A DNA stretch of 33,128 bases, taken from positions 2,633,615 to 2,666,742 of the forward strand of contig VLTH01000002.1 of NCBI GenBank assembly GCA_008125075.1, in the 5' to 3' direction. The stretch comes from Acetivibrio alkalicellulosi (GTDB taxonomy: Bacteria > Bacillota > Clostridia > Acetivibrionales > Acetivibrionaceae). Position numbers and translations under genes: made by a program. Shown one piece after another: positions 3,201 to 26,505 of the stretch. The first letter of the stretch is position 1, and each line of letters begins with the position of its first letter. The notes beneath the pieces were generated by a model. That model made no database searches, had not been told where the DNA came from, and worked only from the letters and a program-made list of their open reading frames with translations.

Positions 3201-4807
3201 CTGTCTGTACCTGGGTAAAGAACTTCCTTATCTACACTTTGAACAGCATCTACTCTAGTAGGCGGTGGAGGAGGCAAAACTTTAAAGCTTGTAGTTCTTT
3301 CTGCTATTTTTACTGAGCTATCTATTATTTCAGATTTAATTATATATTTAGAAGGAGAACTTACATCTGGCTCAAAGCTTAAAGCCTTTGCAGCTGTTAT
3401 ACGATTTTCTGCCTTGCTTTTAACCATTTCATCAGATAATGTAACAACATTTCCGTTTTCATCTAAAATAGTGCTTATTACTTGTAAATCCCTATCCACA
3501 TTTGATTTTGTATAAAATGCAATCTCTGCATTCACTGTCACAGGTTGGTCTACATAAGTCGATTTTGGATATGTTGTTATTGACATGTTTCCCATATTGA
3601 AAAAAGTATCAATTTCAAAAGCTTTTTCATAGTTTGTGAGTATTTTCCCACTGGCTTTATCTTTTATAATTGCTATTACTGAATACTTTCCTGGGCTATT
3701 TCCAGCTGTATTCCACTTAAAATCTGACCCTGCCTGGGAATATACTATATCTCCATAAGGATTTGTAACAAATATAACTTTTGCTGCTTCAAACTGGTCA
3801 TATTCACACTCCACATAAATTTTCATGTCTTCATAGGCTGTAAAATCATAACTCTCAACTATTTTACTTTCTACATATTTAAAAATATTTATATCGTTAA
3901 TTTTTGCATACGGTAAATTCATCTTTTCATCTAAAGCTTGTACAGCCAATATTGTAATATATGGGCTGTCATACCAGCTTCCATTAACTTGCTGTAGGGA
4001 CTTTATCAAAAACTCTACTCCTTCAACAGGTTCAATTCCTAATGTATTTAAAACTGCACGGTATGCCAATAATGTCTCGGGCAATTTTTCTTTGCTAGTC
4101 CCCCAGGTCTTGTCATCTTTTTGACTTGATATAATAAATTTTCCAGCTTTTATAAGTGTTTCTTCTAAGGTATCTGAAGTTAGATTTGTCCTGAATATAA
4201 ATTTACTCATACATAAAACAATTTGTGATGTAAGTGCTACAGATGATTCTACTCCCCAAACATATGACCATCCACCTATATCATTTTGGGTTTTAATAAG
4301 ATAATCCAGCCCTCTTTGAAGTATCTCAATATCAGGTTCGCTTTCCTCTAAAAGAGAATTAATAACGAGAACAGTATCAAGAACACTGCTTTGATAACCT
4401 TTATAAATTCCCCAGCCACCATCATTGTTCTGACTCTCTACAACAAAAGAACGTACATCGGAATATTTACCTGCTTCGGTTATGAATGGCAATATCCTCG
4501 CAGAATAGTCATTGTTTTTAATTTCAAAACTTCTAAACCACTCTTCTGCTTTAAAAAGACTATCTGCTTTTAATGAATTGGTTTTAAGATATGAAGCTAT
4601 TTTCGAGCTTACTACTACAGGTGTAGTAATTTCATCTCTCCAATAACCCTTATCAAATTGATTTTGAATCAGCCATTCAATGGCTTTTTCCACTTCATCA
4701 TTGTAAGAATTTTCTCCTGCAATGACTACAGTTGGAGTTATTGCAATTGCCAGAATACAAATAATCATACTTAAAGCTATAACTCCCCTGTTTTTAAATA
4801 AATTCAT
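275..4807 (-). CDS. Large S-layer-anchored surface protein: toroid repeats, vWA domain, Ig-like domains, 3 SLH repeats
   Basis: A 1510-aa exported protein. Residues 1-30 are a signal peptide (ends near VVIAGENS). Residues about 35-300 hold five repeats of the prenyltransferase/squalene-cyclase alpha-toroid type (NDGGWG, IGGWSY and degenerate versions). Ig-like segments follow to about 545. A von Willebrand A domain spans about 557-740 with the MIDAS motif DSSGS (D564) and a later LLSDG. More Ig/CARDB-like modules run to about 1150, then a DUF11-like repeat near 1190-1290 (SADKSIYLKGETITYTIRY). Three SLH repeats with DGTF(R/K)P motifs begin near 1310, and a partial fourth ends the protein. SLH repeats bind pyruvylated secondary cell-wall polymer, so it should sit on the cell surface; the vWA domain suggests metal-dependent adhesion. 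Toroid active-site residues for terpene cyclisation are not evident, so the toroid is probably structural. The ATG start follows AGGGGG at 7 nt. Confidence 0.9.
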   Translation of the reverse strand: MNLFKNRGVIALSMIICILAIAITPTVVIAGENSYNDEVEKAIEWLIQNQFDKGYWRDEITTPVVVSSKIASYLKTNSLKADSLFKAEEWFRSFEIKNNDYSARILPFITEAGKYSDVRSFVVESQNNDGGWGIYKGYQSSVLDTVLVINSLLEESEPDIEILQRGLDYLIKTQNDIGGWSYVWGVESSVALTSQIVLCMSKFIFRTNLTSDTLEETLIKAGKFIISSQKDDKTWGTSKEKLPETLLAYRAVLNTLGIEPVEGVEFLIKSLQQVNGSWYDSPYITILAVQALDEKMNLPYAKINDINIFKYVESKIVESYDFTAYEDMKIYVECEYDQFEAAKVIFVTNPYGDIVYSQAGSDFKWNTAGNSPGKYSVIAIIKDKASGKILTNYEKAFEIDTFFNMGNMSITTYPKSTYVDQPVTVNAEIAFYTKSNVDRDLQVISTILDENGNVVTLSDEMVKSKAENRITAAKALSFEPDVSSPSKYIIKSEIIDSSVKIAERTTSFKVLPPPPPTRVDAVQSVDKEVLYPGTDSVTLTYNLFGEGTPEMPEREPIDLVLLLDSSGSMSGTPWTQTKEASKIIANMILPQDRCAVIDFGSRATLRQGLTSNKELLNQVIDGMPFEGGGTRMDLGISRAIELIEEEKTERETVFMLLSDGIPNNRNTTQAQANIAAEKGMKIYTLGLGSRIDEDFLKNIASLTGATYKHSPGPDELAEMMIEIAGDIFDTAGKDIVIKAYIPKDSNYINIDRIVPAPSRETIKEDGSMIIEWKFPRIVMGQERLVRITFDGENLISDTNVVLTEKAEVSYIDGNGMTMNFELPGISVEVNKYNLKTIINTDKDKYSSIEDVHISVESKNLTGHLTELIGKVKIVDENDKLVKSLEDKRNMQWQPEETTTQTFNWNAQNVIAGIYKVKVIWMEQNKIISSYVKDFRVIPDDQITNSVVTDKKQYNSGDTVQITDSLHNPSTNANLKDISVITTISNSKEEIIWGNESIVKEILSKDMIRVKNSWNTELNLPGIYKVTSVVHGENELSRDVAKFEILDSDLTGYGIDGVVEVKKEKILRNEDILLKTTAINTGNKDINVAKRIIKIVNPLTEEVVGTIEGTLNLKVDETREYEVVWKNDGIRPGTYLVSYKVELSNGMIIPLDSSYFKVLEESSGTRHSHGTTGTIERPEVEKPGALPEEIIVSVSADKSIYLKGETITYTIRYKNILDITAEEFNIIAEIPQYTSLKYDSGGEVKEGVITWKIPELSGNSEGQIIYAVKVEEFEEPEILVSNTAEVKREQDLIGTSTIRVMLRSLNGKVFHKAYVSGYPDGTFRPEIEVTRAEIAAMFASFVEIDTKVDFENLYTDLSSDHWGLDSIIAVTKAGLFKGYKDGTFKPDANITRAELSAVIANYLEIENIRPVEINYHDIEGHWAYGIIQELHRHNIIKGYEDGSFRPDNNIKRSEAVVLINKMLYRGPLKTDKKIFMDVDKNHWAFGHIAEAAIDHELILDDDGNEILKEGE

Positions 4808-5318
4808 AGAAATACCCCCTAAATATCTTAGTTATATACTATTATCCTCTTTGAGGTTATAGTTTCTCTATTTTTTGGCAAATTTTATAATTTCACCTTT
4901 AACATATAGGTATTTGCTTTTTTTATAATATCATATCAAATCAAATCCTGTTTTTCAATCCGAAAATCATAAAATTAACTAAAACAACATACACCTGCTT
5001 TGTTTTTAAATAAAAGCCCCAAAATAATATTATCCTTAAGTAATGAATATCCTGCACAAAACAAAAATAGCAGAACAAACTTAAGGTTAAAAGAATTTAT
5101 TTTTTAAAACCAGTCCTTATATTTTGGCATTACATCACAAGTTTCATAATCAGAAAAAAGCACATAACTTTAAAAATTTGAAAACTTTTTGTTATTTGCT
5201 AAGGTATTTATAGAAAGAACATTAGAAATAAATGACGACACGTGCATTAAAATCAAAAGCTTCTTATTGAAGTATTTATGATACAATTAATAGGTAAAAA
5301 TATAGGAAAGGATGGATA
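4808..5318. other. Divergent intergenic region between surface-protein gene and sigma-factor gene
   Basis: About 510 bp without a convincing gene, carrying the control regions of two divergent units. On the minus side there is an AGGGGG ribosome site and an imperfect palindrome (CCTC-ttt-GAGG at 4846-4856) about 40 bp from the surface-protein start, within the likely leader. On the plus side the sequence TATGATACAAT (about 5277-5287) could be a -10 for the sigma operon, but I see no convincing -35. A GGAAAGGA ribosome site lies at 5305-5312. Both promoter calls are weak. Extreme AT richness makes further calls unsafe. Confidence 0.5.
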
Positions 5319-5858
5319 TTGAAGGTGGAAAAAATTCTGCTAAAAAAAGTTATAAATGGTGATCAAAACGCCTTTAAAACCTTATATGATGAGTACAGCA
5401 ATTACGCATTAAGGGTAGCAGCAGCTGTCACAAAAAATAATTCAATAGCTGCTGATGTTGTACAAGAAACTTTTATACGTATTTTTAATAATATCCATAA
5501 GTTTGATGTAAATCGACCATTTAAACCATGGTTTTATAGAATTCTTTTAAATGAGTGTAATAGATCCATTAGTAAAAAAGAAACTACTACCTATATTAGT
5601 GATTACATAGAAAATCATCAGGAAATCTCAGAATATGATGTTCACAGCTTTGAGGAATATGAGTTATTATATCGGGCAATAGAAGATCTTGATGAAATTA
5701 ATAGAATACCGTTAATTTTAAAATATTTAAATGATTTTCAAGATGGCGAAATAGCTAAGATTTTAGATTTAAATGTAAACACTGTCAAGTCCCGACTCTA
5801 TAAAGGAAAAGAAAAGCTAAAAAAAATAATGAAATCTTTTAAAAAGGAGGTTAACTAA
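5319..5858 (+). CDS. ECF-subfamily RNA polymerase sigma factor
   Basis: A 179-aa sigma-70 family protein of extracytoplasmic-function size. Region 2 is at about residues 13-78 (AADVVQETFIRIFNNIHKF, then PFKPWFYRILLNECN), which binds the -10 element and core polymerase. Region 4 is at about 115-170, with the helix-turn-helix DGEIAKILDLNVNTVKSRLYKGK. It lacks regions 1 and 3, as is normal for ECF factors. The start is TTG at 5319, 6 nt after GGAAAGGA; a GTG two codons later is the alternative. Its TAA ends one base before the ATG of the next gene, so the two are translationally coupled. Such coupling usually marks a sigma/anti-sigma pair, so this factor is probably held at the membrane by its partner. 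Confidence 0.93.
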   Translation: MKVEKILLKKVINGDQNAFKTLYDEYSNYALRVAAAVTKNNSIAADVVQETFIRIFNNIHKFDVNRPFKPWFYRILLNECNRSISKKETTTYISDYIENHQEISEYDVHSFEEYELLYRAIEDLDEINRIPLILKYLNDFQDGEIAKILDLNVNTVKSRLYKGKEKLKKIMKSFKKEVN

Positions 5859-18033: not shown

Positions 18034-18486
18034 TTACTCTGAATTCGAAACAGGAGACTCTTTTTTATTACATCCGGGGCACAAACCATATAATTCTAAA
18101 TTATGCCCTTCAATTTTGAAGCCTGTTTCTTTGTTAATTTTTTCTTCAAAAGCATCCAAGGGGCAACCTAAAACAGAAACCATTTTGTGGCATAACCTAC
18201 ATATAATATGATGTTTATGTAGCATATTGTTAATTTCATAAACGCCTTTGTTCTCATCACGAATATTGACTTTTACGATTATATCTTTATTCAATAAAGC
18301 TTCAATAGCCCTGTATACTGTAGAAAGGGATATGTTAGAATCAGACATTTTAATGTCTAGATAAATATCTTCAGCAGAAACAGGAAATTCTTTACTATCT
18401 AGAATTTCCAGTATTTTTTTTCTATGTTTTGTGTTTTTTAAACCATTTCTATTTAGAATTTCTATATATTTTGAATAATCGCCCAC
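18034..18486 (-). CDS. zur: Fur-family metal-responsive repressor, probably Zur
   Basis: A 150-aa Fur-family protein. The N-terminal winged helix (residues about 10-80) includes the recognition segment ISLSTVYRAIEALL. The dimerisation/metal domain has the HxH region HKHH (90-93) and two CxxC pairs, C96/C99 and C136/C139, which hold the structural zinc of the family. It is the last gene of a zinc ABC importer operon, 31 bp after the permease, so I read it as Zur: with zinc bound it would repress the operon at the palindrome near 21190. Fur and Zur cannot be separated by sequence alone here; gene context carries the call. Start is GTG 18486, 7 nt after GAAGG. Confidence 0.88.
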   Translation of the reverse strand: MGDYSKYIEILNRNGLKNTKHRKKILEILDSKEFPVSAEDIYLDIKMSDSNISLSTVYRAIEALLNKDIIVKVNIRDENKGVYEINNMLHKHHIICRLCHKMVSVLGCPLDAFEEKINKETGFKIEGHNLELYGLCPGCNKKESPVSNSE

Positions 18487-18517
18487 AAAAAGCCTTCTCT
18501 CTTTATTTAATCTAACC

Positions 18518-19312
18518 TTATTGTTTTTTAAAACGTATCAAAGATATAATCAAACAAATTACATTGATGATAACAATTGTCCCTCCAGGCTTAAAATCAG
18601 AATAAAATGATATAAAAAGACCTAAGACAATTGTTGTTACTGATATTATAACAGATAAAACTGTTGTTTGCCAATAACTCTTACCAATTTGCATGGCAGT
18701 AGCAACTGGAAGAACAATCATTGAGGATATTACCAGTGTTCCAACTATTCTTGATGAAACCGATACTGTAATTGCTGTAAGCAAGGTGAAAATAAAACGT
18801 ATAATCGCAACGGGTATGCCTGCAAGTCTTGCTGATTCTTCATCAAATGTTATATAAAAAAGCTCTTTATATAAAAGACTAAGAGTTAATAAAACAATAA
18901 AGCTAAGACCAACAACAAGAATTAACTCAAAATTTGTTATTACAACGATACTTCCAAATAAAAAACTGTGAAAATTTGCATTTTTTACATAATCCGACAA
19001 AATAGCGGCTAATCCTATTCCTGTTGACATGACAACAGCAATTGCTATTTCACCGTATTTAGGAATTGCTTTTCTTATTTTTTCAATACCTAAAGCTGAA
19101 AATACTGAAAAAATTATTGCTGCAAATATGGGGTTAATATTAAAAGCTAACCCTGCTGCAACTCCTGCTAAAGCAGTGTGTGATAAAGCATCACCAATCA
19201 TGGAAAGGCGTTTTAACACCATAATCATTCCGATAAGTGGTATAATAACACCGATTAAAATGCCAACAATAAAGGCTCTTTGCATAAAAGGATACTGAAA
19301 AATTTCTAGCAT
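18518..19312 (-). CDS. znuB: Zinc ABC transporter permease, ZnuB/AdcB family
   Basis: An ABC-3 family permease of 264 aa with about eight hydrophobic helices. Family landmarks are the N-terminal FMQRAFIVGILIGVIIPLIG, LSMIGDALSHTALAGVA (helix near residues 35-50) and the C-terminal RIVGTLVISSMIVLPVATAM. It carries zinc (or manganese) across the membrane for the binding protein and ATPase encoded upstream. I start it at ATG 19312, which overlaps the ATPase stop by 7 nt and has GGAAGG about 10 nt upstream; an in-frame ATG eight codons earlier lies inside the ATPase gene with no ribosome site. Confidence 0.94.
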   Translation of the reverse strand: MLEIFQYPFMQRAFIVGILIGVIIPLIGMIMVLKRLSMIGDALSHTALAGVAAGLAFNINPIFAAIIFSVFSALGIEKIRKAIPKYGEIAIAVVMSTGIGLAAILSDYVKNANFHSFLFGSIVVITNFELILVVGLSFIVLLTLSLLYKELFYITFDEESARLAGIPVAIIRFIFTLLTAITVSVSSRIVGTLVISSMIVLPVATAMQIGKSYWQTTVLSVIISVTTIVLGLFISFYSDFKPGGTIVIINVICLIISLIRFKKQ

Positions 19313-20085
19313 GTCCCCCCCGCCTTCCATTTGCACTTATCACAGGCATGGCTGTGAAGGTTAATATGATAGCCGTATATTTCAGAAACCTGTTCTCTGC
19401 TAAGGTTAGAATCAGTGTTGTGTATCATAAGGCCTTTGTCTCCAAGACATAATAATCTATCTGCATGAACGGTTACAGCACCAATATCATGTGTTACCAT
19501 CATAATGGTTATACCAAGTTCTTTATTGAGCCTTGCCAGCAAACAATAAACTGCTTCTTCTGATTTTGCATCTATTCCAACTGTAGGCTCATCTAAAATC
19601 AAAATTTCTGGTTCAGAAACTAAAACCCTTGCAATAAAAACTCTTTGCTGTTGCCCCCCCGATAGCTTTCCTATCAAGTTTTTTTTATAAGGCAACATTC
19701 CCACCTTGTCTAAAGCCTCATCAACTAAGCTTTTATGAAACTTTCTTGGTCTTTTAAAAAGTCCTATCTTTGAATATAGGTTTGCTCTAACGATTTCTTC
19801 AACGGTAGCTGGAAAAGCTCCATTAAAAGTATTAACTTTTTGAGATATGTAGCCAATTTTATTCCATTCCTTAAACTTTTTAACATCCATTCCCATAATT
19901 TTAATTTTACCTTCATTTGGAGATAAAATGTCCAACAATAACTTAACCAAGGTACTTTTACCAGAGCCATTAGGACCAATGACTCCTGTAAATGTGCCTT
20001 TGGGGATATTAAAAGATATTTTGTTTAAAATCTGGTTTCCATTGTAAGCAAAGCCTACGTCCAAAACTTCAATAATATTATCCAC
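19306..20085 (-). CDS. znuC: Zinc ABC transporter ATP-binding protein, ZnuC/AdcC family
   Basis: A 259-aa ATPase. Walker A is GPNGSGKST, signature LSGGQQQR, Walker B ILILDEPTVGID, H-loop MMVTHDIGAV. The C-terminus ends in a metal-binding-looking tail, NLHSHACDKCKWKAGGTC, with His and four Cys; similar tails occur in some ZnuC/AdcC proteins and may sense zinc, though here it is only suggestive. ATG follows AGGTGG. It lies 41 bp after the binding-protein gene and overlaps the permease gene, so the three form one importer. Confidence 0.95.
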   Translation of the reverse strand: MDNIIEVLDVGFAYNGNQILNKISFNIPKGTFTGVIGPNGSGKSTLVKLLLDILSPNEGKIKIMGMDVKKFKEWNKIGYISQKVNTFNGAFPATVEEIVRANLYSKIGLFKRPRKFHKSLVDEALDKVGMLPYKKNLIGKLSGGQQQRVFIARVLVSEPEILILDEPTVGIDAKSEEAVYCLLARLNKELGITIMMVTHDIGAVTVHADRLLCLGDKGLMIHNTDSNLSREQVSEIYGYHINLHSHACDKCKWKAGGTC

Positions 20086-20126
20086 CTATTCCATTTTAAC
20101 CCTTTCTATGGTTTTATTGCATTAAC

Positions 20127-21161
20127 TTAAAAAGTCAAATATTTTTTTAATGTTTCTAAATTCTGACGCATAAAGTAAAAATAATCTCTTCCAGCCTCTA
20201 AATCATCTTTACTGATACCCTCAATTGGGTTTAAAATGGCTGTTTCTATGCCAAGATCCTTCGCTAGTGCATCTACTACTCTTGAGCTTGCCATTTCTTC
20301 AAAAAATATAACCTTTACATTATGCTTTTTAGCAAACCGTGTTATTTCAGCCATTCTAGCAGGACTTGGTTCAACATCAGAATACAAACCTTTAACTCCA
20401 AGTTGTCTTAATCCGTAAGCATCACATAAATAACCGTATGCTTCATGTGATACAATAATTTCCTTTGCTTTAAATTCTGCAACTGCTTCCCTATATTCTT
20501 TATCCAATTCATCAAGCTCTAACGCATATTTTTTAAAATTATCTTCATAAAAGTTTCTGTTTTCAGGATCTTTTTCAATAAATGCCTCCATAATCATTTG
20601 CATTTGAATTTTTGCATTCATGGGATTTAGCCATACATGCGGATCATACTCATGGTGATGGTGATGCTTTTCATTATGGTCGTGATTGTGGCTATGGTCA
20701 TGGTCGTGATTGTGGCTATGGTCATCATGGTCATTACCCATATTAATAAGTTCAATCCCCAAGGAAGTTTCCACCACCAGAAGATTTTTATTATTTACTG
20801 CAGATAGAACACTTTCTACCCATCCTTCCATTTCAGCACCATTATAGATAAATACATCAGCATTGAATAGAGCTGCTATATCCCTTGCTCCCGGCTCCCA
20901 GTGATGAACTTCTGTGCCAGGTGGTACCATATTGCTTGCTTCAATCCTGTCTCCACCAATTTTTTTGGCAAAGTCATACATGGTAAAAAAGCTGGTATAC
21001 ACTTTAAGTTTTGGTTTTTCAGGCTCTGGATCTTCTGACTGTAGTTCTTCTAAATCTACCGTTACAGGTTGGTTGTTGTCATTTTCAGTATTGTCGGTAT
21101 TTTTTGTACATCCACTGGTAAAAATTAAAATCAAGCCTAATAAAATTATTAATTTCTTCAT
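20127..21161 (-). CDS. znuA: Zinc-binding lipoprotein of ABC importer, ZnuA/AdcA family
   Basis: A 344-aa cluster A-I substrate-binding protein. A signal peptide ends in lipobox FTSGC with the lipidated cysteine at C18, so it is tethered outside the membrane. After an acidic linker (about 20-50) comes the metal-binding fold: HHWEPGARD (H86/H87), DPHVWLNP (H175), SHEAYGYL and the final acidic motif near FFEEMASS. Between H87 and H175 lies a long His/Asp-rich loop (about 142-170) typical of zinc rather than manganese binders. Part of this loop is coded by two perfect 24-bp repeats. ATG follows GGAGGGAG. First gene of the znuA-znuC-znuB-zur operon. Confidence 0.95.
   Translation of the reverse strand: MKKLIILLGLILIFTSGCTKNTDNTENDNNQPVTVDLEELQSEDPEPEKPKLKVYTSFFTMYDFAKKIGGDRIEASNMVPPGTEVHHWEPGARDIAALFNADVFIYNGAEMEGWVESVLSAVNNKNLLVVETSLGIELINMGNDHDDHSHNHDHDHSHNHDHNEKHHHHHEYDPHVWLNPMNAKIQMQMIMEAFIEKDPENRNFYEDNFKKYALELDELDKEYREAVAEFKAKEIIVSHEAYGYLCDAYGLRQLGVKGLYSDVEPSPARMAEITRFAKKHNVKVIFFEEMASSRVVDALAKDLGIETAILNPIEGISKDDLEAGRDYFYFMRQNLETLKKYLTF
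20676..20723 (-). repeat. Two perfect 24-bp tandem repeats in the His-rich loop of znuA
   Basis: The unit ATGGTCGTGATTGTGGCTAT plus GGTC occurs at 20676-20699 and again at 20700-20723. On the coding strand it encodes D-H-S-H-N-H-D-H. Such in-frame units can gain or lose copies and so change the length of the zinc-scavenging loop. Confidence 0.9.
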
Positions 21162-21328: not shown

Positions 21329-21418
21329 ACCTATCTTGAATTCATTGATTTTGATTCTAAAAATTCTTTTAGTACGTTTATATCTTCATTACTCATTGTA
21401 CCTAAAACCTCTTTTTTA
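21329..21418 (-). repeat. Source copy of the duplicated 3' end
   Basis: The last codons of the membrane-protein gene, nearly identical to 12092-12174 about 9 kb away in the same orientation. This copy is intact and in frame. Confidence 0.8.
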
Positions 21419-22671
21419 TTTTGTAAAGATAAAGATATTTGATACTTTTTTCCTTTTGGAACATAGTCAATATTTTTTAATATATGTAATGGATATTTCC
21501 CTTTTTTAAAGTTACTTCCCAATTCAAAAATAACTATTTGATTAGCAGTATCAATTGTAATTTTTGTTATATATAGATCTAGAACAAACTCTAAAAGTAC
21601 AAATGACAATATCAAAATCCATAATATATTGTGGGGTTGAAATTTCTCTTTAATATTAAGACTGTCAGAACTTTCGTCTGACATAAATGATTTTACTGAA
21701 TTTAAACTGCTTTGACCGAACTTGCTTGTTTTAAACCTAAGATTATTATTATATATAATTACAAAGTATGAACTTTCTGAATCTGATTCTATTCTTACAT
21801 CCTGCACATTTTCTAAAACAACTCTTTTTGTTTCATATTTTTCTTTACCTAAGAAATTATATATTACTTCACCAACTATCCTGTCATTTTCGATTTTTTC
21901 CATTTTTATAGTTTCTAATATAAAAACATAATTAGCAAGAAATATAATAAATAAAAGTACTAGAACAAACATCACCTTAGCTAGTATGCTTTTCTTTACT
22001 TTTAAAACAATGTTTTTTTCTTCTCTTTGTAGTTTTATTTTTTTGTCAAATAAAGCCCCTGAAATCTTCGGAAGTTTTCCAAATAAGTCATTAAATGATT
22101 TGATTTCCTCACAATAGTAATCAATTGGTGTTTCCTCTTTATTATTGTTTTCTGTAGACCCCTTAAATAAAACATCGGGTTTATTTATTGCTAAACCTGG
22201 TTTACCAATAATCATTATTATATCATCAGCCAAATTACTAATTTCTCTTTCAAATATTGATCTTGCTATAGATATCTCTTTTTGATTAATCTCTATAAAT
22301 AAAGTATACTCTACTTCTTCATTGCTGTATTCATCATCAGATATAGATTTATCAATTTTAAATTTTACTATTTCATTAAAGGAATATATATCATAAACAG
22401 AGTTTAAGAAATTTGTTTTTTGTATTCTCATTGTCTTATCTGCTTTATCAAAAATATATTTACTTTCATCTCTCTTTGTTATTAAATAAAAAGCAGCAGC
22501 TACAAGAATGAATAGAATAATTGAGTTTATGCTTATCAAATCATTTAATGTCTTTAGAGCTATATACGTAAAAGATGCTACAACTACTAGAAAAATAATT
22601 CTAACTTTAATTGTTGATTGATACTCTATAACTATCTTTTCATTTTGCCTATCTACTTTAAAATTATTCAA
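21331..22671 (-). CDS. Membrane protein of unknown function, two PH-like halves
   Basis: A 446-aa protein I do not recognise. Four membrane helices occur in two groups: about 22-40 and 46-64, then about 228-250 and 345-365. After each pair comes a soluble beta-rich region in which a buried strand pattern recurs (YIFDKADKTMRIQKT; ITIDTANQIVIFELG), suggesting an internal duplication resembling bacterial PH/DUF304-type domains; this is a reading by eye. The start is TTG 22671, 9 nt after GAGAGG, with an in-frame TGA three codons upstream, so it cannot begin much earlier. The 3' end is duplicated at 12092. No operon partner: the zinc operon downstream has its own promoter. It could be a regulatory or structural membrane protein. 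Confidence 0.72.
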   Translation of the reverse strand: MNNFKVDRQNEKIVIEYQSTIKVRIIFLVVVASFTYIALKTLNDLISINSIILFILVAAAFYLITKRDESKYIFDKADKTMRIQKTNFLNSVYDIYSFNEIVKFKIDKSISDDEYSNEEVEYTLFIEINQKEISIARSIFEREISNLADDIIMIIGKPGLAINKPDVLFKGSTENNNKEETPIDYYCEEIKSFNDLFGKLPKISGALFDKKIKLQREEKNIVLKVKKSILAKVMFVLVLLFIIFLANYVFILETIKMEKIENDRIVGEVIYNFLGKEKYETKRVVLENVQDVRIESDSESSYFVIIYNNNLRFKTSKFGQSSLNSVKSFMSDESSDSLNIKEKFQPHNILWILILSFVLLEFVLDLYITKITIDTANQIVIFELGSNFKKGKYPLHILKNIDYVPKGKKYQISLSLQNKKEVLGTMSNEDINVLKEFLESKSMNSR

Positions 22672-22876: not shown

Positions 22877-22888
22877 CTTTTTATGATT

Positions 22889-22927
22889 AAAAAAGAGTAG
22901 AAGGTTTATATGCTTCTACTCTTTTTT
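22889..22927. terminator. Strong intrinsic terminator after the FIST gene
   Basis: AAAAAAGAGTAGAAG (22889-22903) and CTTCTACTCTTTTTT (22913-22927) form a 15-bp perfect stem with a 9-nt loop. It ends the chemoreceptor/FIST operon on the minus strand, 36 bp past the stop. Confidence 0.9.
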
Positions 22928-22962
22928 ATATCTATTAAACTATCTAAATGCTGTGAAAAATT

Positions 22963-24093
22963 TTAAGTTTTTTTGGATTTGAAAACTAGCATTGTAGATG
23001 TTTGATTTATATGGCCTATATATTCTTCACCATAGGTTGAAAAGCCTATTGTAGGAATATCTTTAAAAATTTCACCATATTGCTTTGTTGTATTTTCTTT
23101 TTGCAATTCTAGAGTTCTTAGTATACAATGAAAATTAATAATGCCTTCAATACTTCCAAACTCTTTTACTTTGCTTTCAATAGATCTTTTTGTGTCTTCT
23201 AATATATTTGTTGATTTAAGCAACTTAACTTCCATACCTTCTAATATATTGCAATAGAAACGCATAGTATTACCAATAATACTTTGAGGACTTCTTACGT
23301 AAATATCATCTTCACCAATAGGTAAACCTACAGGATTAGTCATGAAGTATTTAGATATATGTTCAGGCGAAGAAGCACCTACAGCTTTAGCATATGCATT
23401 TACAGCAGGCTCATTGTTAAATTCAATAACCTGTCTGTTTTTTTCATCAACCTTACTAGCAGTAAGAACATGATCTAAAACTTCAAAGCTTTGAGTTTTA
23501 ATAATTCCAAACTCCGCAGTATCATTTATTTTTAAAAGAGCCAGCAAAGCAGCATTATTATATGCTTTGCCATTAGCAAATACATATGTTTTAGAGAATT
23601 TTAGATCATCCCCCGCTGAGCCTCCAATAAAAGTGACATTTGTTCTATCGCCAATCAGATCCATTACACTCTCTTCCATCATACTCAGTCCGTCTATTAA
23701 AATTATACCTACATACTTTGTCATGTCCATGGTATATAAATTATCATTATAGTATTTTTCAAAGGAGTCAAAAGCATTATTAACATCAGGATTATCAGAA
23801 ATATTTTCAAGCACTTCTATCTTACATTCTTCAATAATACTTGAATTAAATGCCATTGCAACAATTGATTTTGTTAACATATCTCCACTTGTTATTTCAC
23901 CTGCCGTTGAGCATCCAAAAACCACAGCATCTTCAAAAGCTCTTTGCATAAGTAGACTCAAACTATCTAGATCAAAACTAGAAGATGAAAAAAACACCAG
24001 CAACTTTACGTCAAAGTCTCCTAACTGATTTTTTATATCTTTTATTGCCTCATCTACCGTAGGCTTTGTTGAAACTACAGACACTATATTCAT
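22963..24093 (-). CDS. Stand-alone FIST-domain sensory protein
   Basis: A 376-aa soluble protein covering FIST_N (about 25-205) and FIST_C (about 220-365) with no other domain. Landmarks: VVFGCSTAGEI, GIILIDGLS, FIGGSAGDDLKF then TYVFANGK, NNEPAVNAYAKAVG, INFHCILR and the C-terminal GFSTYGEEYIGHINQTSTML. FIST domains are predicted small-ligand sensors, usually fused to kinases, chemoreceptors or cyclic-dinucleotide enzymes. Here the domain is free and is the last gene of an operon whose first gene is a receptor without a sensor domain, so it is probably the detached input module for that receptor (inference). No signal peptide or membrane helix, so ligand sensing is cytoplasmic. ATG follows GGAGGTGG. 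Confidence 0.9.
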   Translation of the reverse strand: MNIVSVVSTKPTVDEAIKDIKNQLGDFDVKLLVFFSSSSFDLDSLSLLMQRAFEDAVVFGCSTAGEITSGDMLTKSIVAMAFNSSIIEECKIEVLENISDNPDVNNAFDSFEKYYNDNLYTMDMTKYVGIILIDGLSMMEESVMDLIGDRTNVTFIGGSAGDDLKFSKTYVFANGKAYNNAALLALLKINDTAEFGIIKTQSFEVLDHVLTASKVDEKNRQVIEFNNEPAVNAYAKAVGASSPEHISKYFMTNPVGLPIGEDDIYVRSPQSIIGNTMRFYCNILEGMEVKLLKSTNILEDTKRSIESKVKEFGSIEGIINFHCILRTLELQKENTTKQYGEIFKDIPTIGFSTYGEEYIGHINQTSTMLVFKSKKT

Positions 24094-24103
24094 ATTCCAC
24101 CTC

Positions 24104-24304
24104 CTATAATTTTACATTAAGTTCTTGTGCTATTCTTGTAACTTTTTCAATTATAACAGGGTCATCTTCAGAATTACTATCATACTTGTCCGGATTAATA
24201 CCCTTAAAAATAAATTTAGCTTTAGTGGTTTGAGCTATAACTGAATTACCTTTAGATCGTTCTTCAATAATTTGAGTTATCATATCTTTGATTATACCAG
24301 ACAA
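24104..24304 (-). CDS. Small protein between chemoreceptor and FIST genes
   Basis: A 66-aa acidic protein beginning SGIIKDMITQIIEE. I start it at TTG 24304, 6-7 nt after AGGAGTG; the GTG at 24313 lies inside that ribosome site and cannot be used well. The product has a helical N-terminus, a central basic/hydrophobic strand (KAKFIFKGINPDKY) and a C-terminal helix (EKVTRIAQELNVKL). No family recognised. It lies 44 bp after the receptor gene and 10 bp before the FIST gene, so all three are one transcript. An adaptor that couples the FIST sensor to the receptor is a natural guess, without direct evidence. Confidence 0.75.
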   Translation of the reverse strand: MSGIIKDMITQIIEERSKGNSVIAQTTKAKFIFKGINPDKYDSNSEDDPVIIEKVTRIAQELNVKL

Positions 24305-24348
24305 TAAAATCACTCCTTTTTATATTACTTTTTTGTATTTAAATAAAT

Positions 24349-25416
24349 CTAAACTGGTTTGTTTAGTTTTATTGAAGATAGTTCACTTTCCAATTCTTTA
24401 ACAAATTCCAAAATATTATTAGTAAGTAGTACAATTTCTTCAACATGGTCTATTTGATTTTCACTGGTAGATGCCACATCTGTTGTAATATTTGCTATTT
24501 CTTGAGCTTTTTCAGCTATATCTGTAGACTTTAGCATTATTTCTATTGATTTATCAACCGCATCCTTTAAGGAGCTATTAGTGTTTAACATATTTTCGTT
24601 TGTACTTTTAGCACTGGTAAGAATATCATTAAAAAACTCTTGTGTTGAGTTTAAAGAATCTTCTTGAATGTTAATAGTACTAAGAGTGTTATTCATGCTT
24701 TGTATTAATGATTCACTCTTAGTATTCACCTCAGATATTATATTTACTATTTTTTTTGCAGATGTATTTGAAAGATACGCAAGTTTTTTAATCTCATCAG
24801 AAACAACCAAAAAACCTCTCCCAGCTTCTCCAGCTTTAGCCGATTCTATTGCTGCATTTAAAGCAACCAAATTTGTCTGTTTAGATATAGAAGTTATTAT
24901 TTGTGCAATTGATAAAATATTTTTTATCATTTCTTGCAATTCTTCAATAGATATATTTATTTCATTAATTATATTAATTGTACTTTTAGTTGCTTGAATT
25001 TGATTTAAAACCAATTTCTTACCATTATTAACCAAAATCATCATTTCTTTAATCTTTAATTCACCTTCATTAGTAAGAAAACTAATATTTTCCATCAAAT
25101 CAACGACACTAGAATTTATATTAGTAAGATCTTGTGTTGAGTTTGCTGCAGTACTATTTTTTTCTACAATTCCAGTTATAGACATAGCTAAACTGCTTAC
25201 TGATGAAAAGTTTATGTTTAACTGATCTGTTAATTGATTAAAGCATTTGGAAAGTTTACAAATAATGCTTTGTAATTTATTAATATCAATTTCAGTATTG
25301 ATGCTCTTATTATTAGTTTTGCTTATACTTTGCGCTAAGTACATTTTTCTATATTTAATACATAAGAAAATAATAATAATTGTCTGCAGTATCAAAAATA
25401 AATATACATATACCAT
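24349..25416 (-). CDS. Methyl-accepting-type signalling protein lacking a sensor domain
   Basis: A 355-aa protein with one N-terminal membrane helix (about 3-21), no external domain and no HAMP. The rest is a long coiled coil whose hairpin tip is intact ([20 protein letters not shown] at about 172-191, then [22 protein letters not shown]). This tip binds CheA/CheW in chemoreceptors. The missing input module suggests it takes its signal from a partner, and the FIST protein two genes downstream is the clear candidate. ATG follows AAGGAGA. Upstream is a possible sigma-D-like promoter (25565-25591), fitting motility or chemotaxis control. No CheA or CheW gene is in the window. Confidence 0.9.
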
Positions 25417-25564
25417 TTAAATTCTCCTTATTTAGCACACATTTATGTAAATTACCCGCTACTTAGCCTAGACTCTTTATAAATATATTTCTATTCCTTA
25501 TCTTTGCTGAAATGTTTGTTGAATAAAAAAGTACGAAATTAATTTTAAAATAGTATTAATGTAT

Positions 25565-25591
25565 GTATCGGTTATATCATTTAAAAATTAA
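25565..25591 (-). promoter_or_regulatory. Possible sigma-D (FliA)-type promoter
   Basis: On the minus strand TTAA (25588-25591) and ACCGATAC (25565-25572) are 15 bp apart, against the Bacillus sigma-D consensus TAAA-N15-GCCGATAT. The CCGAT core is present, the -35 is weak. It lies about 150 bp upstream of the receptor gene. The rest of 25417-25737 shows nothing else recognisable. Confidence 0.4.
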
Positions 25592-25737
25592 TACTTTGTA
25601 AGAATTTCTTTTACTTTTTTACCGCAAGCTCATTTTTTTGAGAAAGGGTTCGGTTATGCTGAGCAAAAATATGTAAAACTTATATATATATACCACAGGC
25701 ATTAATTATCTACCGATTTTTTTATGAAGGGAAATAA

Positions 25738-25848
25738 AAAACATATCTTCGGTTTAGAACAACAAATGAAATAAAGAACATAAATGGAAAGGTTAAATTT
25801 GCATTAACAGGAACTCCAATTGAAAATAATATATCATATCAATCATAA
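25738..25848 (+). pseudogene. Remnant of a SNF2-family helicase gene
   Basis: An open stretch of about 36 codons reads INGKVKFALTGTPIENN before a stop at 25846. ALTGTPIEN is the hallmark helicase motif III region of bacterial SNF2/RapA-like ATPases, where it is normally followed by a leucine-rich helix and SIFDF. Here the following residues are unrelated (ISYQS) and the frame closes. There is no start or ribosome site. I read it as a short leftover of a deleted gene. Confidence 0.7.
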
Positions 25849-25910
25849 ACTAAAAACGTAAGCATCCAAGAAACTGACATACAAGTTATTTTTTGCAACC
25901 TATTCTAGTG

Positions 25911-25945
25911 GGCTATTATTTAGATAAGCTGTCCAAATAATAGCC
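25911..25945. repeat. 11-bp perfect inverted repeat
   Basis: GGCTATTATTT (25911-25921) pairs with AAATAATAGCC (25935-25945) around 13 nt. Neither strand has a T-run after it. It lies between the helicase remnant and the toxin gene and may be the end of a lost element. Confidence 0.55.
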
Positions 25946-25978
25946 TAAAATCGGTGACCCTACCTTAAAAATACTAAA

Positions 25979-26018
25979 ACAGTATGATAATTTCCGTCAT
26001 CGGCCATCTTCACACTGT
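25979..26018 (-). terminator. Terminator-like hairpin after the toxin gene
   Basis: ACAGTATG (25979-25986) and CACACTGT (26011-26018) pair with one G-U. On the minus strand TTTTAGTATTTTTAAG follows. It begins 6 bp past the toxin stop codon. Confidence 0.5.
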
Positions 26019-26023
26019 CTTTT

Positions 26024-26290
26024 CTAGTCATAAACATCTCTTCTATGTCCAATTTCTACAATGGTTATTACCACTTTGTCATCTTCAATTTTTGCAAGCA
26101 TGCGATAGCCTCCAACTCTATATCTCCATTTATCTCCAAGATTTCCTTGTAAGGATTTACCGTATACTCTCGGATCACTAGAATTTACAAGCTTATCTTC
26201 AATGTAAGAAAGTATAAACGCAGCAATTTTCTTATCCATCTTTTTAAGTTGTTTCACTGCTGTTTTTGTATATTCCACCTTATAAGTCAT
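26024..26290 (-). CDS. relE: RelE/ParE-family toxin
   Basis: An 88-aa toxin of the RelE fold. Visible family features are the N-terminal YKVEYTKTAVKQLKKMDKK, the central LQGNLGDKWRYRVGGYRML and the C-terminal VVITIVEIGHRRDVYD. RelE members cleave mRNA in the ribosomal A site; the conserved basic residues (K13-K20 region, R56, R61, R84/R85) fit that branch better than gyrase-targeting ParE. The gene's start overlaps the antitoxin stop by 4 bp (ATGA), the usual coupling. The pair is complete and looks functional. Confidence 0.92.
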   Translation of the reverse strand: MTYKVEYTKTAVKQLKKMDKKIAAFILSYIEDKLVNSSDPRVYGKSLQGNLGDKWRYRVGGYRMLAKIEDDKVVITIVEIGHRRDVYD

Positions 26291-26505
26291 AATCCAAGTT
26301 CCTTTTTAAGTTCCTCATGACTAAGCTTTTCTTGATCCTTTTCCTCTTCCCATACTTTGTCAAAAAGGGTCAAATCATATTCATCTTCAATCTTTTCAAT
26401 AACTGCTTGCCTGATAAAAGTAGATAAGTCTACTTGATGTAATTCTGCATATTTTCTTATAAGTGTATCGTCTTTATCGTTTAATCTTATTGAAATTGTA
26501 CTCAT
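26287..26505 (-). CDS. relB: Antitoxin of the RelE-type pair (RelB/DUF6290-like, ribbon-helix-helix)
   Basis: A 72-aa protein. Residues 1-45 have a ribbon-helix-helix pattern (TISIRLNDKDDTLIRKYAEL then LSTFIRQAVIEKIEDEYD) that should bind DNA as a dimer. The acidic C-terminus (EEEKDQEKLSHEELKKELG) would wrap the toxin. ATG follows AGGAGGTG. Promoter and palindrome upstream fit autorepression by the antitoxin alone or in complex. Confidence 0.92.
   Translation of the reverse strand: MSTISIRLNDKDDTLIRKYAELHQVDLSTFIRQAVIEKIEDEYDLTLFDKVWEEEKDQEKLSHEELKKELGL

Follow-up and report, generated by a model that had tools for sequence, protein, structure and literature searches.

How does a chemoreceptor that carries no recognisable sensor come by anything to report? 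Most receptors are described as single polypeptides that both sense and signal. The question is raised by a three-gene operon of Acetivibrio alkalicellulosi that lies within a stretch of 33,128 nucleotides (contig VLTH01000002.1, positions 2,633,615 to 2,666,742; hereafter the window), where a gene for a methyl-accepting chemotaxis protein (MCP) is followed by genes for a 66-amino-acid protein, which we call SMALL, and for a free-standing FIST protein. We propose, with a probability of roughly 0.68, that the products of this operon make up a split cytoplasmic chemosensory unit, in which a NosP-like auxiliary FIST sensor drives CheA through the sensor-less receptor. The unit has the following features:

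22888..22928, minus strand: Rho-independent terminator of the unit (folding, −20.6 kcal/mol, z −7.28)
22963..24093, minus strand: free-standing FIST protein (FIST_N and FIST_C), 376 amino acids, NosP-like (Pfam, NCBIfam)
24099..24105, minus strand: ribosome-binding site AGGAGGT for FIST, sharing bases with the SMALL stop codon (sequence)
24104..24304, minus strand: 66-amino-acid protein (SMALL), TTG start, predicted three-helix module (open reading frame, homologues and the model of a relative)
24313..24318, minus strand: ribosome-binding site AAGGAG of the 66-amino-acid gene (sequence)
24349..25416, minus strand: MCP-type receptor, membrane-anchored, without a recognised sensor, 355 amino acids (Pfam MCPsignal, hydropathy)
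24769..24915, minus strand: receptor hairpin tip, residues about 168-216, predicted CheA/CheW contact region (reading of the sequence)

The genes run in the order receptor, SMALL, FIST, with gaps of 44 bp and then 10 bp. These gaps, already given by the original prediction, match a SMALL gene that starts at the TTG at 24304 behind AAGGAG, and this start yields a 66-amino-acid product that aligns with its homologues. The overlap of the FIST ribosome-binding site with the SMALL stop codon suggests that the two genes are translationally coupled. About 35 bp behind the FIST stop codon lies the single terminator that had been expected, a 16-bp hairpin with a 9-nucleotide loop and a 3′ arm ending in six U; a pattern scanner for terminators reported none at this end of the unit, probably because the loop exceeds the scanner's limit of 8 nucleotides. 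The hairpin is nearly symmetric and so possibly bidirectional. Judged from the sequence, the three genes form one tight unit closed by a strong terminator. The possible promoter of the original prediction was not recovered: a promoter scan found no promoter-like site on the minus strand of the leader (25417-26023), and its 31 sites compare with 25.4 expected from shuffling.

The receptor matched Pfam MCPsignal with 98.5 bits (cut-off 34.6) over residues 148-285. At E ≤ 1, Pfam gave neither a HAMP nor a sensor domain, two other rows being at chance level and below their cut-offs; a very divergent HAMP is conceivable. Hydropathy shows a single hydrophobic segment, at residues 2-20, and the hairpin tip, inside the MCPsignal match, looks intact by eye against the tip consensus. 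The genome holds 18 MCPsignal and 10 CheW-domain matches, so the signalling machinery is present; the nearest CheW match is at least about 100 kb from the operon. The only two FIST genes of this genome adjoin its two shortest MCP frames of the 18. The receptor was thus much as first described, with one membrane segment, an apparently intact CheA/CheW-binding tip and no sensor or HAMP domain, and the description also held for the placement of the three open reading frames on the minus strand, for the complete stand-alone FIST and for the unrecognised protein between them.

The FIST protein contains full FIST_N (132.7 bits) and FIST_C (76.7 bits) domains and resembles NosP over its length: the NCBIfam model NF041558 scored 255.3 bits, with residues 7-369 on model positions 3-366 of 368. 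Three papers (PMC12570481, PMC6769237 and PMC8846402) describe NosP-type free FIST proteins as binding haem, responding to nitric oxide (NO) and controlling separate sensor-less kinases. On the same model, an annotated Azospirillum NosP scored 499.9 bits, four FISTs paired with MCPs scored 148 (L128), 172 (L142), 87 (L154) and 256 (L025), and one GGDEF-fused FIST scored 86. His361, in an HxNQT motif, is common to all 16 FISTs of the SMALL-associated clade and is found in none of the 14 aligned GGDEF-fused FISTs; the same histidine occurs in a curated NosP, in two NosP-like plasmid proteins and in 12 of 13 aligned MCP-paired FISTs (13 of 15 pairs were aligned). Our guess is that it is a haem ligand. 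The operon partner of the window FIST is an MCP, not the histidine kinase or cyclic di-GMP (c-di-GMP) enzyme that serves as a criterion for NosP.

SMALL, scanned as a 69-amino-acid form, had no Pfam match and one NCBIfam row, at 15.5 bits against a cut-off of 225. A profile search matched 4 of 58 order genomes, 4 of 391 class genomes and 7 of 398 phylum genomes, the own genome being included in all three, and 5 of 63 genomes in the class of G729, which carries a triplet described below; further loci came from two Bacillaceae plasmids and from one Chloroflexi metagenome-assembled genome, which turned up alongside three loci already in the set. Two class matches, in G216 and G327, were set aside as chance hits, so that G219 and the own genome remain; G216 was set aside again among the phylum matches. 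In the class search these two (E about 5e-4) were 30-residue stretches of frames 2008 and 2351 amino acids long, and the large protein around the G216 match resembles a glycosidase. A weak match in G628 (E 9.6e-4) was kept because a FIST gene directly follows it. The family is rare, with 16 loci in total, the window included. FIST lies directly downstream of SMALL in 12 of them and is fused behind it in the other 4 (L026, L027, L036 and L177), and a same-strand MCP directly adjoins SMALL/FIST in 5. Since SMALL occurs with FIST at every locus, in 4 cases as one protein, and next to an MCP in only 5, it seems better described as a FIST module than as a proven receptor adaptor.

Structure prediction, run on single chains, gave the module a three-helix form. 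The protein modelled was a SMALL-FIST fusion from a relative (locus L034, the G010 protein; 8 rows, mean predicted local distance difference test score 76.9, predicted template modelling score 0.70), and in it the helices are joined to FIST by a linker, residues 68-95, whose confidence is low, so that we claim no interface. The best match of this model in the PDB was a chain of the SCF-FBXO22-BACH1 structure (E 7.9e-6, root-mean-square deviation 20.9), in which FBXO22 is a FIST protein. Sequence searches of the PDB gave nothing credible, the best E values being 0.09 with the FIST profile and 0.031 with the SMALL profile. Two of the fused loci have layouts of their own. At L177:3909-6455, one protein combines the 66-amino-acid module, FIST, GGDEF and HD, a natural fusion to c-di-GMP-type domains. 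At L036:4561-7552, a SMALL-FIST fusion is followed 208 bp downstream by a PAS-HisKA-HATPase kinase, a layout like that of NosP.

The complete triplet of receptor, SMALL and FIST was found in five genomes: in the window, at L178 (G729), L186 (G833) and L187 (G832), and on a plasmid of Pontibacillus sp. ALD_SL1 (L167). The order is MCP, SMALL, FIST in the first four, with 42-55 bp between the MCP and SMALL genes, and SMALL, FIST, MCP in L167. By Pfam, L178 (extending into L189) and L187 (extending into L190) belong to chemotaxis (che) gene clusters with CheA, CheW, CheY-like, CheB, CheR and CheX. For L186, where only CheW was scanned, a CheW lies in neighbouring L191, and in gene sizes and sequence the rest of the region looks like L187. 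MCPsignal is the sole Pfam family above cut-off in all five receptors (limits of E ≤ 1 for the window, 0.01 for L167 and L178, and 1e-5 for L186 and L187). Hydropathy gave two segments 3-7 residues apart in L178, L186 and L187 and two overlapping segments in L167, and the N-terminal layout of the five receptors offers no space for a domain outside the cell. In L178, L186 and L187, the linker that follows the second segment might be a divergent HAMP, a call that Pfam does not make. The receptors differ in length (326, 355 and 519-531 amino acids), which makes simple orthology unlikely. G729, G832 and G833 belong to one family (f112) and their FISTs cluster in the second of the two trees described below, which leaves about three possibly independent cases of the triplet. 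A search for conserved co-occurrence, as the original prediction had suggested, gave a divided answer: four relatives within the genus have no FIST, but the triplet is present in four more distant genomes.

FIST genes also adjoin short MCPs in the absence of SMALL. FIST (PF08495) was present in 19 of the 58 order genomes and 45 of the 391 class genomes, and the 82 loci that we gathered, one being the Chloroflexi metagenome-assembled genome, hold 85 distinct FIST open reading frames, among which a few are fragments of a single gene. Sixty-two of these frames were at most 480 amino acids long and had no output domain attached (three are SMALL-FIST fusions), and 23 were longer. The idea that FIST domains are normally fused to their output is at odds with this count, and also with NosP, a published free FIST (PMC12570481 and PMC6769237). 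Sixteen of the 62 free frames, the window and 15 others, had a same-strand MCP of under 400 amino acids within 350 bp, and two more had a longer MCP at that distance; as a control, any same-strand MCP came that close to 9 of 601 other frames of at least 80 amino acids in the same loci (Fisher p 5.4e-12, a value that ignores relatedness). The 15 pairs without SMALL include the near-identical L162/L163 (weak) and L154/L155. FIST always precedes its MCP in these pairs, at a spacing of −19 to 25 bp in 14 and 336 bp in L025, and 14 of the 15 MCPs have no membrane segment (best 19-residue hydropathy ≤1.26), L092 reaching 1.75 at a doubtful start. By eye, most share a C-terminal motif, approximately KKxxxFxDINNFLEQI, and an N-terminal LxxEE-like stretch, a possible docking site; the motif was not seen in an alignment, again by eye, in receptors of the L025/L092 type.

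Some of these pairs have unusual receptors. The second FIST/MCP-like pair of A. alkalicellulosi (L025:2392-4941; G000:C2, about 2.818 Mb) has a receptor whose tip is degenerate (SSQTKLVAMNALIHSAK), and at L092 a FIST stands beside a similar degenerate form; a partner independent of CheA/CheW is possible for both. L162 and L163, from two genomes of one genus, each have at 3676-5510 a shortened FIST (261 amino acids) that overlaps a strongly degenerate MCP-like protein.

Phylogenetic trees grouped the FISTs that accompany SMALL. In a first tree, limited to FIST frames of at least 120 bits (69 rows, two of which were dropped for poor column cover), they formed one clade (6 of 6 rows, support 100/100). 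This tree was built without NosP rows and placed the SMALL clade as sister to an MCP-paired clade (84/74), and 13 of the 16 rows in the clade next to it were paired with short MCPs. In the second tree, from which the fused rows L026, L027 and L036, present in the first, are absent and to which two NosP-like plasmid rows were added, the SMALL-associated FISTs again formed one clade (13 of 13 rows); the two plasmid rows join it with 99 in the Shimodaira–Hasegawa-like approximate likelihood ratio test, and L177 is the row nearest to the window FIST. The window FIST matched 221 plasmid records, and among 30 listed matches we viewed five neighbourhoods. Two have the SMALL gene, one of these with an MCP behind FIST. 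Of the others, one carries a gene annotated as nosP with, behind it, one annotated as a NahK-type kinase; in another, a response regulator and a PAS-domain protein flank the FIST; and in the fifth, an unannotated record, our open-reading-frame script did not pick out the FIST.

In the mechanism that we propose, FIST and its constant companion, the 66-amino-acid helical module, would together act as an auxiliary cytoplasmic sensor. FIST would bind the cytoplasmic part of the receptor, which would sit in the membrane merely as an anchor, and ligand binding by FIST would shift the signalling state of the receptor and hence the activity of CheA, on the model of free NosP acting on sensor-less histidine kinases. 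We infer the docking, the direction of the effect and the ligand, for which NO or haem is the leading guess. Like the NosP auxiliary sensors of the NahK, NosK and VpsS kinases, the window has a free FIST_N-FIST_C protein in an operon with a sensor-less signalling protein, and it shares with NosP the full-length model match and the HxNQT histidine. Unlike in those systems, the partner is a chemoreceptor, there is an extra 66-amino-acid module and the NosP cut-off is missed, the likeness being one of sequence. The FIST/short-MCP pairs of the sampled class likewise have a free FIST adjoining a short MCP without a recognised sensor, whereas they place FIST first, have no 66-amino-acid protein and use mainly soluble receptors, most with the C-terminal motif. 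H-NOX/MCP fusions exist (PMC8738867) and bring haem-based sensing to a membrane-bound MCP signalling domain as the proposed unit would; there, sensor and receptor are one protein, and in the window they are separate genes.

That a partner lacking its own sensor can be served by a free FIST is a principle already known from kinases. A detached FIST acting on a bare receptor had been put forward as a new arrangement, which is borne out in part: free FISTs do recur beside receptors, but their work with sensor-less kinases is published for NosP. We found no report of FIST with a chemoreceptor, or with the 66-amino-acid module, in a literature search that most subscription papers lay outside.

Several observations weigh against a dedicated FIST-receptor unit. 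The triplets of G729, G832 and G833 count as about one event, and the four other genomes of the genus of the window have no FIST. MCPs are not directly beside FIST in 11 of the 16 SMALL loci. In L036 the neighbour is the kinase 208 bp downstream, the MCP being 2.2 kb upstream and not adjacent, and in L177 SMALL-FIST is fused to a GGDEF-HD output, so the SMALL-FIST cassette is not tied to chemotaxis. In L166 the MCP is on the other strand with one gene between, and for the remaining MCP-less SMALL loci we identified no partner. The window FIST falls short of the curated NosP cut-off (255.3 against 450 bits), and the two trees place NosP differently, with a different branching order of NosP, SMALL-associated and MCP-paired FISTs. 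Residues 1-139 of the receptor had no relative in the other 390 of the 391 class genomes (at most 10 best candidates per genome; the full 58-genome order set lay outside this search), and by eye in an alignment the receptor does not carry the C-terminal motif of most soluble FIST-paired MCPs. The receptors of L025 and L092 have altered tips (MCPsignal 26.6 and 24.4, cut-off 34.6) and the L162/L163 MCP-like proteins are degenerate, so that these pairs may have an output other than CheA.

The 66-amino-acid/FIST pair might instead work in trans, as a free sensor for other outputs such as a histidine kinase or c-di-GMP enzymes, with the receptor as an incidental neighbour. The PAS-HisKA-HATPase kinase behind the L036 fusion, the fusion to GGDEF and HD in L177, the closeness of L177 to the window FIST in the second tree and the 11 loci without an adjacent MCP all fit this explanation. 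It sits poorly with a triplet that recurs in four other genomes, with receptors of varied size and three of them in che clusters, and with the mostly short-MCP-paired clade (13 of 16 rows) beside the SMALL clade in the first tree, and we consider it improbable. Somewhat less doubtful, though still unlikely, is that SMALL is, as the original prediction had it, a true adaptor between FIST and receptor, such that without it FIST could not reach a membrane-anchored receptor. All five MCPs beside SMALL-FIST have predicted membrane segments and 14 of 15 MCPs without SMALL have none, and the SMALL gene stands between receptor and FIST in 4 of 5 triplets. Yet the 4 loci in which SMALL and FIST are one protein have no adjacent MCP, and SMALL accompanies FIST elsewhere where no receptor adjoins; in L177 it is part of a protein with a different output, and 15 other FIST/short-MCP pairs have no 66-amino-acid protein alongside.

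The split chemosensory unit, which we prefer to both, is compatible with a further alternative in which the ligand alone differs and FIST senses something besides NO or haem, for example a small metabolite. The shortfall against the NosP equivalog cut-off (255 of 450 bits) speaks for another ligand, as do the lower scores of the MCP-paired L128, L142 and L154, with L025 at about the level of the window. The NosP match nevertheless spans the full protein, and His361 separates a curated NosP and the SMALL clade from the GGDEF-fused FISTs; we hold the two possibilities to be evenly balanced.

Beyond this operon, we lean slightly towards a Bacillota-wide, undescribed class of split chemoreceptors, in which interchangeable free FISTs, some with the 66-amino-acid module, would act on soluble or anchored sensor-less MCPs and inform chemosensory arrays of a gas or metabolite inside the cell by way of a swappable subunit, with kinases and c-di-GMP enzymes as further outputs of the same SMALL-FIST cassette. 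If so, a recurrent separate cytoplasmic sensor would explain what some sensor-less MCPs listen to, NosP-type sensing would be linked to CheA arrays, and an unnamed 66-amino-acid family would gain a function.

Other genes lie around the unit and around its relatives. Just upstream, at 26024-26505 of the window, are a ParE-type toxin gene and a DUF6290/ribbon-helix-helix antitoxin-like gene. Past the terminator, the next gene on the same strand (21331-22671) encodes a 446-amino-acid protein that has hydrophobic segments and matches no Pfam family credibly, and at 18034-21161 we recognised by inspection a Fur/Zur-like regulator and an ABC uptake system for a metal, probably zinc, whose binding protein has a His-rich loop. 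In another clade of free FISTs (L113:4902-7583 and L131:4908-7692), an aldehyde dehydrogenase-like gene lies directly downstream, identified by Pfam in L113 and by resemblance in L131.

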